Of a stretch of 64,000 nucleotides of DNA, positions 2,769 to 5,977 are shown piece after piece. Source of the DNA: Amycolatopsis tolypomycina (GTDB lineage: Bacteria; Actinomycetota; Actinomycetes; Mycobacteriales; Pseudonocardiaceae); NCBI RefSeq assembly GCF_900105945.1, contig NZ_FNSO01000004.1:930001-994000 (forward strand). Direction: 5' to 3'. The notes under the pieces were generated by a model. It had not been told where the DNA came from, searched no databases, and was given only the letters and a program-made list of their open reading frames with translations. The position numbers were made by a program, and so were the translations under genes. The first letter of the stretch is position 1. Each line of letters opens with the position of its first letter.

Positions 2769-2803
2769 GCTGCCCCTCGGCTCAGCGCGGGTCGAGGGGC
2801 AGC
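2769..2803. terminator. hairpin terminator between convergent EamA and GNAT genes
   Basis: An 11-bp perfect stem, GCTGCCCCTCG and CGAGGGGCAGC, with a 13-nt loop starts 6 nt after the EamA stop and overlaps the last codons of the converging GNAT gene. It is placed to terminate both transcripts. Confidence 0.65.
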
Positions 2804-3354
2804 GCCCGCCCCAGGATCGCGAACGGCCGCGGGTCGCCGGCGAAGTGGTAGTCGCGCAGGACGTCGACGAAGCCGGTGCGGCGGTAGAGCTTCCACGCGC
2901 GGCTGGTGCCCTCGGGCGTCGACAGCAGCACGTTCGCGCTCGGGACGCCTTCGAGCAGGCTGCGCAGCAGGTCCTCGCCGATCTGGTGGCCCTGGTTCTC
3001 CGGCCGGACGTGGATCTCGGTCAGCTCGAAGTAGTCGGCCAGCCAGCGGTCGGCCTCGGCGGTCCCGGACCGGCGGCTCAGGCCGTGGCGCACCTGCTCG
3101 TGCCACCACTGCCCGGCCCGCCCGCGGTAGCCGTAGGCCACGCCGAGCAGGACGTCGTCGGCGTCGAGGGCGGCCATGCAGCGCCAGCCCTCGCGCAGCG
3201 CGTGGGTGAGCCACATCGGCGCGCGCTGCTCGGCGGTGCCCGCGGGGTAGCGCATCGCCCGGACGTAGATGTCGAGCGCTTCGGGCAGGCGGGCGCGGAA
3301 CTCGTCCGCGGAGAGCTGGACGTAGCGGGAGCAGCCGGCGGGCATCGCGGTCAC
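2782..3354 (-). CDS. GNAT-family N-acetyltransferase
   Basis: 190 residues with a GNAT fold. The central strand LTEIHVRPENQGHQIGEDLLRSLLEG carries the motif A acetyl-CoA pyrophosphate loop (Q-G-H-Q-I-G in place of the common Q-x-x-G-x-G/A). The C-terminal SRAWKLYRRTGFVDVLRDYHF is the usual motif B. GNAT enzymes transfer an acetyl group from acetyl-CoA to an amine. The acceptor is unknown, and the RAPMWLTHALREGWRCMAAL segment is not diagnostic. Its start overlaps the stop of the YbaK-like gene by 4 nt (ATGA), so the two are translationally coupled and form an operon. Confidence 0.85.
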   Translation of the reverse strand: MTAMPAGCSRYVQLSADEFRARLPEALDIYVRAMRYPAGTAEQRAPMWLTHALREGWRCMAALDADDVLLGVAYGYRGRAGQWWHEQVRHGLSRRSGTAEADRWLADYFELTEIHVRPENQGHQIGEDLLRSLLEGVPSANVLLSTPEGTSRAWKLYRRTGFVDVLRDYHFAGDPRPFAILGRALPLDPR

Positions 3355-3863: not shown

Positions 3864-3966
3864 GAACCTATGAGATCACGCCGCCGACCTGGTGTCCCGC
3901 ACCACGTCCGGGGATTGCCCCCTGGGGTTGAGCGCGTACCGGGTCGGGGGTTACTCTGGAAAACGT

Positions 3967-3982
3967 TCGAACAAGCGTTCGA
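3967..3982. promoter_or_regulatory. SOS box (LexA operator)
   Basis: TCGAAC-AAGC-GTTCGA is a perfect match to the actinobacterial LexA consensus TCGAAC-N4-GTTCGA. It lies 104 nt before the start of the HEPN/proline-rich gene at 4087 and is at least as good a match as the SOS box before recA in this window. The nearest divergent gene (YbaK, start 3863) is 103 nt away, so either side could respond. Confidence 0.85.
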
Positions 3983-4086
3983 CATCTGGTGAGCGCGCAC
4001 CGGTCGGGTGCCCGGTACCGGGACGGGGGAAGCGTCTCGGCACCGGGCCCTTGATCGGGCTCACCCCGCGCAGGAGGAGGGTCGCC

Positions 4087-5220
4087 ATGTCCGTCAAGGT
4101 CGTGTCCCCCACGGATCCCGGGCAGCCGGAGCTGCCCATGTCGTTGCGCCCGCAGCCGGCCCAGCCGCCCGCGGCACCCCGCGGACGCACCCGCCAGTGC
4201 CTCGCGGCCCCGGCACCGGACCCGCGGCAGCCACAGCTGCCGATCCCCCTGTGCCCCGCGGCGGCCACCCGCCCGTCTTCGGCCCCGGCGCAGCCGCTTT
4301 CGGTACCGGAGCAGCTCCGGCCGGCGAGTGCCGCCCTCCCGCTTCGTTCAGCCGCCTCCGGTGGGGAGCCGGGGCAGCTGGAGCTGCCGTCGCCGGGACA
4401 GCCGGGGACGCCTGCCGAGCCGTGGTCGACGGCGGCCGACGCCGGCCAGGCCGAGCTGCCGGTTCGGGAGGTTGCGGAACAGCCGCGGTCGGGGGCGGTT
4501 CCGGCTGCCGCTGATGCCGGTCGGCGCGAGCTGCCCGCTGTGGGGGGTGCGGTGCAAGCCGAGCCGGTTGCGGCAGAGGTGGGGTCCGGCGTGCCGGTGG
4601 CTTCGGCGGCGGCGTCTGCCCCACCTGCCGCCGACGCCGGTCGGTCCGAGCTGCCCGCTGTCGGGGATGCGGCGCAAGCCGAGCCGGTCGCTGCCGAGGT
4701 GGAGCCCCGCGTGCCGGTCGCCCCGGGTGCCGGCTCCGGATCGCCCGAGCTGCCCCTGTCCCTGCGGCCACCCACCGCCGCCGAGTCCGATCAGTCGGCG
4801 CTGCCCATGTCGCTGCGGCCGCCCGCGTCGCCCGCCGCTGCCGGGTTGCTTGCGCAGGCCCGGCGGGGGCTTGCCGAGGCCGTGCAGGAAAGCCGGCCCG
4901 CCGAACGCTTCATCGGGGCCTACCTCGCCGCCCTTCGGGGGGCCGCCGCCGTGCTGGCCGCGCGGGGGCGGCCGCACCGGGGGCGGGCGCGCCCGGCCAG
5001 CACCTGGGATCTGCTCGACTCCGTCGCCCCCGAGCTGCGCGAATGGTCCGCCTTCTTCGCCAGCAACTCGGCCACGCGCGCCGCCGCGCAGGCCGGGATC
5101 ACCGGGAAGGTCACCGCCGAGTCCGCGGCCGGGCTGGTCGGGGCCGCCACGCCGTTCCTGGAACTCGTCCGCCGTCTGGTGCACGGCCTGCCGATCACCG
5201 GGGAAGCCCATGTCGCGTGA
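4087..5220 (+). CDS. SAV_6107-type HEPN protein with repeated QxxLP-hydrophobic linker motifs
   Basis: 377 residues. ATG 4087 is chosen behind AGGAGGAGG; upstream in-frame sequence lies in the promoter. Residues 1-250 are Pro/Ala-rich and probably disordered, carrying recurring motifs: QPELPMSL (13-20), QPQLPIPL (48-55), AALPL (82-86), QLELPS (97-102), QAELPV (121-126), RRELPA (146-151), RSELPA (186-191), SPELPLSL (219-226) and QSALPMSL (236-243). Residues 141-180 and 181-216 are a 40-residue (120-bp) tandem duplication. Residues about 253-366 form an all-helical domain matching the actinobacterial HEPN SAV_6107 family. A perfect LexA box lies upstream, so DNA-damage induction is likely. The motifs resemble the sliding-clamp-binding hexapeptide (Q-x-x-L-P-L type); this is inference. 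The stop overlaps the start of the next gene by 11 nt. Confidence 0.8.
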   Translation: MSVKVVSPTDPGQPELPMSLRPQPAQPPAAPRGRTRQCLAAPAPDPRQPQLPIPLCPAAATRPSSAPAQPLSVPEQLRPASAALPLRSAASGGEPGQLELPSPGQPGTPAEPWSTAADAGQAELPVREVAEQPRSGAVPAAADAGRRELPAVGGAVQAEPVAAEVGSGVPVASAAASAPPAADAGRSELPAVGDAAQAEPVAAEVEPRVPVAPGAGSGSPELPLSLRPPTAAESDQSALPMSLRPPASPAAAGLLAQARRGLAEAVQESRPAERFIGAYLAALRGAAAVLAARGRPHRGRARPASTWDLLDSVAPELREWSAFFASNSATRAAAQAGITGKVTAESAAGLVGAATPFLELVRRLVHGLPITGEAHVA

Positions 5221-5977
5221 GCACGGCCCGGTCGACCAGGGGCGGCTGCTCACGGCGTTGGGAATCGAAGGCAGGCTGCTGGCCGAGGCGGTGCACGCCG
5301 CCCCGGCCGAAGCGCCGGTGCCCGCCTGCCCCGGCTGGACGATCGCCGAGGTCGCCCGGCACGTCGGCAGCCTCTACCGGATGGTCCGCCGCCGGCTGGC
5401 CGACGGCCGGAGCCCCGACGACTGGCCGCGCGACCCCGAACCCGGCCAGAGCCTGCAGGGCTTCCTGGTGGCGGGCCTGTCCGACCTGCTCGACGAGCTG
5501 GCCGCGCACGATCCGGAAGAACGCGCCGACACCTGGTGGCCCGCGGACCGGACGTACGGGTTCTGGCGGCGGCGGATGCTGCACGAAACCGTCGTCCACC
5601 GGGTGGACGTCGAGCAGGCGGCGGGCGCCGACCCGCGCGGCGTGCCCGACGACGTCGCCATCGACGGCATCGACGAGGTGCTCACCCTCTGGTTCGGGCA
5701 GAAGCTGCCGATGCTCGGCCTGACCGGCACGAAAGCGGGCTCGGTCGGCGTCCGGGCCGGCGCGCACAGCTGGATCGCGCGGGCCGGCCCCGACACCACG
5801 GAGGCCTGGCGCTGTTCGGCCGAGGAGGCCGAGGCCGCGGACGACGTCGTCACGGCCAAGCCCGCGCAGCTCTACCTGTGGCTCTGGGGCCGGGCGTCCC
5901 TGACCGCGGTGACCGTGCGCGGCGTGCACGACCAGGCGGCCCAGCTCTGGGCGCTGCTGCGGCTCGCGACCCGATGA
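5210..5977 (+). CDS. maleylpyruvate isomerase-family mycothiol-dependent enzyme
   Basis: 255 residues of the DinB-like four-helix fold used by mycothiol-dependent metalloenzymes. The N-terminal half has PACPGWTIAEVARHVGSLYRM, the first metal-histidine helix. The middle carries FWRRRMLHETVVHRVDVEQA, which supplies the remaining metal ligands. The C-terminal part (KPAQLYLWLWGRASL) is the usual small alpha/beta add-on domain. Family members use mycothiol, the actinobacterial thiol, to isomerise or detoxify small molecules. The substrate is unknown. ATG 5210 lies inside the end of the HEPN gene, so translation is coupled and the enzyme is probably part of the same SOS-controlled transcript, which is an unexpected partnership. 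Confidence 0.85.
   Translation: MSREHGPVDQGRLLTALGIEGRLLAEAVHAAPAEAPVPACPGWTIAEVARHVGSLYRMVRRRLADGRSPDDWPRDPEPGQSLQGFLVAGLSDLLDELAAHDPEERADTWWPADRTYGFWRRRMLHETVVHRVDVEQAAGADPRGVPDDVAIDGIDEVLTLWFGQKLPMLGLTGTKAGSVGVRAGAHSWIARAGPDTTEAWRCSAEEAEAADDVVTAKPAQLYLWLWGRASLTAVTVRGVHDQAAQLWALLRLATR

Follow-up and report, generated by a model that had tools for sequence, protein, structure and literature searches.

An exact LexA box stands before a gene for a HEPN-domain protein in Amycolatopsis tolypomycina, which raises the question of what a HEPN protein made during the SOS response would do. The gene lies in the window, by which we mean the whole stretch of 64,000 nucleotides analysed here (contig NZ_FNSO01000004.1, positions 930,001 to 994,000). 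A first-pass annotation of this DNA proposed a damage-induced, multivalent tether to the beta clamp whose HEPN domain acts on RNA or DNA at replication sites. From comparisons of sequences across the class, we favour with moderate confidence a non-catalytic, SOS-controlled HEPN adaptor of DnaE2-type translesion synthesis that would carry a Q-P-x-L-P docking peptide. The window gene would be the Amycolatopsis version of a conserved Actinomycetes SOS gene.

The window gene and LexA boxes across the class

The gene, its parts and the gene that overlaps its end are as follows.

3967..3982, no strand: LexA (SOS) box TCGAACAAGCGTTCGA, an exact palindrome 104 bp 5' of the HEPN start codon
4087..5220, + strand: open reading frame of a SAV_6107-family HEPN protein, 377 aa, with a PF18726 match
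4087..4830, + strand: proline/alanine-rich N-terminal linker, about aa 1-248, predicted to be disordered (AlphaFold2: low pLDDT, without secondary structure)
4123..4140, + strand: QPELPM motif in the translation, aa 13-18
4228..4245, + strand: QPQLPI motif in the translation, aa 48-53
4375..4392, + strand: QLELPS motif in the translation, aa 97-102, with a non-hydrophobic position 6
4447..4464, + strand: QAELPV motif in the translation, aa 121-126
4792..4809, + strand: QSALPM motif in the translation, aa 236-241, directly N-terminal of the HEPN domain; the genus-wide copy (Q-x-x-L-P here in 59/59 other genus loci)
4879..5172, + strand: HEPN domain, aa 265-362 (PF18726)
5210..5977, + strand: MDMPI_N / DinB-superfamily gene (PF11716, E 3.8e-20), which overlaps the 3' end of the HEPN gene

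Both the perfect LexA box (3967-3982) and the 377-residue protein behind it (4087-5220) were recognised in the first-pass annotation and are confirmed here. Exact TCGAACN4GTTCGA palindromes number six in the 10.36-Mb genome, the window box among them, and a reversed control pattern was found nowhere in the same 10.36 Mb. Two other perfect boxes of this genome lie in L053 (at 5647) and L052 (at 7286); the former adjoins what we take to be a replicative-helicase-dnaB-like gene, and the latter a long open reading frame near genes that are presumably chorismate-mutase-like and sucCD-like.

A profile search placed PF18726 (HEPN_SAV_6107) on residues 265-362 with 112.4 bits (E 1.6e-32) against a gathering score of 27.2, which assigns the protein to the HEPN fold, and AlphaFold2 gave most of the HEPN helices a pLDDT above 90. 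In a search of PDB sequences the one HEPN match was weak (2hsb, E 0.3). The linker was modelled with secondary structure absent, and up to residue 240 its ten-residue blocks have a pLDDT of about 41-63, in agreement with the disordered part described in the first-pass annotation.

The HEPN gene is present in 174 of the 256 genomes sampled from the class. We compared the window with 70 loci drawn from these HEPN-positive genomes, and within 1150 bp upstream of the HEPN gene 52 of the 71 loci have a perfect LexA box and 16 a box with one mismatch; the remaining 1.05 Mb of the same loci contains four perfect boxes. The three loci with no box within 1150 bp are L041 (genus g8), L043 and L093; in L093 a perfect box lies farther off, 1.67 kb upstream. 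The box is perfect in 135 of 140 Pseudonocardiaceae loci and has one mismatch in four; the remaining locus, cut by a contig end, has none. The proposed SOS control is supported by this conservation of the box in orthologues (68/71 class loci and 139/140 Pseudonocardiaceae loci), and LexA repression of the HEPN gene can be strongly inferred from it.

Conservation differs among lineages. Perfect boxes precede 25 of 80 named loci, and none of the 19 Streptomycetaceae among the named loci has a box with one mismatch or fewer. In Streptomyces the HEPN gene lies near a DUF3040 gene and the good LexA box is lost (L147, L172-L174, L176, L178 and others), and some Streptomyces loci have CCGAACN4GATCGA-like sites. 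Many Streptosporangiaceae loci (L143, L149, L154, L171 and others) have two boxes about 40 bp apart, each with one or two mismatches, in place of the single perfect box.

A likely orthologue has already been placed in the LexA regulon of Corynebacterium glutamicum. According to the available text of PMC5055667, cg2381 is a LexA-regulon gene of unassigned function that is induced by ciprofloxacin to the same degree as recA (M 3.86). This gene lies near mraZ (cg2378), as HEPN genes do in L040 and other loci, and PF18726 is also matched in C. glutamicum; by this synteny and match, cg2381 is probably the C. glutamicum orthologue.

Polymerase genes beside the HEPN gene in relatives

In 36 of the 70 relatives, a gene for a DnaE-type polymerase lies downstream of the HEPN gene on the same strand. 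Five loci (L042, L059, L077, L091 and L114) have the order HEPN-ImuA'-ImuB-DnaE2 with the HEPN gene first, and the DnaE2 proteins of L042 and L077 match the NCBIfam DnaE2 model with 1520 and 1552 bits. In 31 loci a DnaE2B-like DnaE follows the HEPN gene directly on the same strand, with a DUF6504 match upstream of the HEPN gene in 27. At 17 of these 31 loci a candidate DnaE start codon falls between -4 and +15 bases of the end of the HEPN stop codon; the frame of L107 was not recovered and is uncertain, and the DnaE of L084 is a 432-aa piece. A Y-family polymerase, but no DnaE, is directly downstream in 11 of the 70 loci. The other 23 have no polymerase match directly downstream, in 16-kb stretches that can miss distant partners; one of them is cut by a contig end (L087) and another (L071) has a DnaE gene about 8 kb away. 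In L071 the HEPN and DnaE genes stand apart and a second perfect LexA box precedes the DnaE gene. A link of the HEPN gene to translesion synthesis is supported by these operons of relatives with DnaE2-type polymerases and ImuA'/ImuB.

We use the label DnaE2B-like, by analogy with PMC12926913, because the three representatives scanned from the 31 loci diverge from both the DnaE1 and the DnaE2 models. These three scored 619-637 bits with the DnaE2 model and 629-655 bits with the DnaE1 model, below both cut-offs, and were slightly nearer DnaE2A by blastp. An assignment to plain DnaE2 was rejected, since the scores with the two models are about equal and below the cut-offs. Another DnaE is encoded elsewhere in 18 of the 19 HEPN-DnaE genomes searched, and so the operonic protein is a second DnaE. 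The HEPN-DnaE arrangement is also found, together with a perfect LexA box, in metagenome-assembled genomes of Kineosporiaceae (L191) and Mycobacteriales (L189), and in Kineosporia rhizophila (L167), where the stretch searched contains no LexA box.

Two further assignments were considered and set aside. One was that the HEPN protein stands in for ImuA', an idea prompted by its absence from genus g2; the window genome has ImuA'-like genes as well, and the five loci with HEPN and ImuA' in one gene row also rule this out. The other was that DUF6504 is a standalone ImuB C-terminus. The two look similar by eye, and an hhalign comparison of 26 DUF6504 sequences with seven ImuB C-termini did not confirm this (probability 0.2 over 11 columns). 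Among HEPN-negative genomes, DnaE2 scored above the NF004225 cut-off in 11 of the 16 searched, including all five of genus g2, indicating that DnaE2 does not depend on the HEPN protein in these lineages.

In the window genome no polymerase gene adjoins the HEPN gene; the MDMPI-family gene lies there instead. A divergent GNAT acetyltransferase gene (2785-3354, - strand) is a recurrent HEPN neighbour in this gene order. DnaE2 matches are absent from all of the stretches, 3-5 kb each, that surround the HEPN gene in the 140 Pseudonocardiaceae loci. The window genome has three DnaE2 genes, all away from the HEPN gene (L051, L054 and L055): two are accompanied by ImuA'-like and ImuB genes and have LexA boxes of their own, and the third has a one-mismatch box near its start. 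The ImuA'-like proteins gave no Pfam match, and we take them to be such from gene position and known features.

The Q-x-x-L-P motif

The linker of the window protein contains five Q-x-x-L-P motifs (QPELPM, QPQLPI, QLELPS, QAELPV and QSALPM), four with a hydrophobic next residue. Composition-shuffled linkers averaged 0.089 copies of Q-x-x-L-P-hydrophobic and none of 2000 reached four. The pattern described in the first-pass annotation stands for four copies. Its count of at least seven ELP-type motifs stands only if QLP and ALP are included, which gives nine xLP; strict ELP tripeptides number six. Among 121 open reading frames called in about 168 kb of the genome, the HEPN protein alone has more than one Q-x-x-L-P-hydrophobic motif, and four have a single one.

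The linker rule could be applied to 71 of the 76 proteins returned by the first search for homologues, while the other five could not be split. Of the 71, 69 have between one and eight copies in which P is followed by A or a hydrophobic residue, and two have none. The copy next to the HEPN domain is present in all 60 genus genomes (59/59 other loci and the window), with a hydrophobic residue after P in every genus locus listed. Of the 59 other genus loci, 40 have one copy only and 19 have two or more, so that several copies occur in 20 of the 60 genus genomes, the window genome included. The 81 loci from other Pseudonocardiaceae genera, which with the 59 make up the set of 140 (22 of the 108 HEPN-positive family genomes were left out), comprise 16 with a single N-terminal copy, 65 with none and none with more; the forms QPALPF and QPALPL occur in sister genera. 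Linker repeats among homologues were thus found in part of the genus and in none of the 81 loci from outside it, and multivalency is not a family trait. Because most genus loci have a single copy and some have repeats, the repeats are, as judged from these sequences, a late elaboration of a single motif directly before helix 1.

A related motif occurs at the other end of the protein in other families. A tail of the form LG(L/V)xxQPxLP is frequent after the last HEPN helix in the 70 class-wide loci (10 plus 60 stretches spread over the class, with some genera represented more than once). In an alignment that was not chosen by motif, the tail columns have Q in 42/65, L in 45/64 and P in 34/63 of the proteins with a residue there; the near-invariant Q and the figure of 118/120 from alignment A1 are biased, as A1 was chosen partly for the C-terminal motif. 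Q-x-x-L-P falls within the last 40 residues of 18 of the 70 proteins, compared with a mean of 0.8 and a maximum of 7 in shuffles. The tail motif is missing from all 59 genus loci, which have the N-terminal one instead, and from many other family members. Many homologues lack Q-x-x-L, which counts against the annotation as first framed, yet Q-P-x-L-P recurs C-terminally in other families. We infer that the N-terminal peptide of the genus and the C-terminal peptide of other families may be the same kind of docking peptide, relocated.

Whether the partner would be the sliding clamp is the closest alternative to weigh. That the Q-x-x-L-P repeats bind DnaN, making the protein a damage-induced clamp tether that is multivalent in the window genome, is possible, though we put it at somewhat less than an even chance. 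Positions Q1 and L4 agree with the clamp motif and, in most Amycolatopsis copies, P5 and the hydrophobic residue 6 agree with the Hda-type hexamer QLSLPL, for which the available text of PMC12309361 gives a KD of about 280 nM on E. coli DnaN. A hydrophobic residue follows P in all of the listed HEPN-adjacent genus copies and in the QPALPF and QPALPL forms, the gene is SOS-controlled and polymerase-linked, and the likely motif of one ImuB, QPGLWG, also has P at position 2. However, the likely clamp motifs of the window genome itself are different (QFDLFG in DnaE1, and QLDLW and QLQLG in ImuB; ImuB motifs were read by eye). Unlike QxxLF, the HEPN motif lacks F5 and usually has P, S or A at position 2. 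While Q1, L4 and P5 are present in the four window copies, their position 6 is M, I, V and M rather than the L or F of QxxLx(L/F), and in the C-terminal form of other families it is often H, G, S or T, a poor fit to the clamp hexamer. The scarcity of multiple copies, in only 19/59 other genus loci and 0/81 elsewhere in the family, also argues against a multivalent tether. The fit to known clamp motifs is partial.

It may also be that the linker is drifting low-complexity sequence in which extra Q-x-x-L-P motifs arose by local duplication and bind nothing, so that the HEPN domain alone matters. Linker length and copy number vary widely, from 1 to 8 copies in motif-bearing homologues, the copies share duplicate-like LPMSLRPP flanks, and the N-terminal motif is missing from 65 of the 81 family loci outside the genus. 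We consider this unlikely, since the conservation of the HEPN-adjacent copy in 59/59 other genus loci and the similar C-terminal motif far above shuffles in other families make at least one copy look selected.

Role of the protein and comparison with known systems

An adaptor role best suits a non-catalytic bundle with a putative docking peptide whose gene, in relatives, adjoins those of DnaE2-type polymerases and ImuA'/ImuB. Two readings that depart further from it remain to be considered. The MDMPI gene (5210-5977) overlaps the HEPN stop codon and an MDMPI match lies beside the HEPN gene in 134 of the 140 Pseudonocardiaceae stretches, and it is therefore probably co-transcribed and SOS-induced too. 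This companionship might suggest that the HEPN gene serves mycothiol or thiol chemistry with its overlapping partner, not DNA synthesis, but just one of the 150 loci from elsewhere (L095; 70 plus 80 loci) has an MDMPI match whereas polymerase neighbours recur, which makes a thiol role improbable.

A damage-induced HEPN ribonuclease that slows growth is very improbable: HEPN proteins are often toxins, some of them even without RX4-6H, and helix 2 carries the sole R-x4-H of the family (R in 69/70 and H in 64/70 class-wide loci), but the SAV_6107 subfamily is listed with 'No' for a conserved RX4-6H (available text of PMC3710099), 72 of the 73 readable first-search homologues, the window protein among them, have R-x4-Y at helix 2, and the recurrent operon partners are polymerases. 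The window protein does not have the RX4-6H active site of catalytic HEPN endoribonucleases. The claim that its HEPN domain acts on RNA or DNA is not upheld, and nuclease activity, or the cutting of nucleic acid in general, is unlikely because the usual HEPN active site is absent.

Under the preferred reading of the protein as an adaptor of translesion synthesis, DNA damage would activate RecA, LexA would leave the observed box and the HEPN protein would be made. Its non-catalytic helical bundle, judging from the operons of relatives, would then assist the error-prone DnaE2-type machinery as an accessory factor or adaptor, and the Q-P-x-L-P peptide would dock it to a partner in the replisome or mutasome. 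Candidate partners are the sliding clamp, DnaE2, ImuB and RecA/ImuA'. In many families the peptide follows the last helix, whereas in Amycolatopsis and some sister genera it directly precedes helix 1; some members of the genus, among them the window genome, have several copies of it along an extended disordered linker. The separation of the HEPN gene from the DnaE2 genes in the window genome would suit an adaptor that serves several mutasomes in trans.

In this small helical HEPN protein, soil-living relatives of Streptomyces probably have a damage-tolerance component that has been overlooked. Tentatively, and with more speculation, SAV_6107 HEPN could be an unrecognised mutasome subunit that uses a Q-P-x-L-P peptide, bound to the clamp or another part of the replisome, to recruit DnaE2-type polymerases to stalled forks. 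It would provide ImuB-like docking in DnaE2B systems, where ImuB is lacking, and would serve as a multivalent recruiter for several DnaE2 copies in part of Amycolatopsis. DnaE2 mutasomes drive damage-induced mutation in actinobacteria. The HEPN protein, common in the class, with a LexA box in nearly all lineages examined and often encoded beside polymerases, is a concrete candidate for a missing mutasome part.

Among open-licence PMC papers to August 2026, none contains both 'HEPN' and 'DnaE2', and 'SAV_6107' occurs in PMC3710099 alone. The main texts of PMC12926913, PMC6511836, PMC10421592 and PMC9380542 do not contain 'HEPN', and supplements or subscription papers could list the LexA link by locus tag. 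The system described here shares LexA control with the ImuA'-ImuB-DnaE2 mutasome (DnaE2A) and its DnaE2B variants (PMC12926913, PMC6511836, PMC10421592), and the HEPN gene heads ImuA'-ImuB-DnaE2 in five loci and precedes a DnaE2B-like DnaE in 31; the window copy, in contrast, lies outside any such operon. The HEPN-DnaE arrangement resembles the DnaE2B groups in the available text of PMC12926913, where the link reported for the DnaE2B group of Arthrobacter alpinus is to ImuB-C only.

The window protein belongs to the same domain family as HEPN_SAV_6107 (PF18726; HEPN-M, Anantharaman et al. 2013, PMC3710099), which is likewise actinobacterial and without RX4-6H. The sole mention of SAV_6107 in the main text of that work, a table row, gives no operon or architecture, and our analysis adds to it LexA control, operons with DnaE2-type polymerases, a Q-P-x-L-P tail and the motif-bearing linker of Amycolatopsis.
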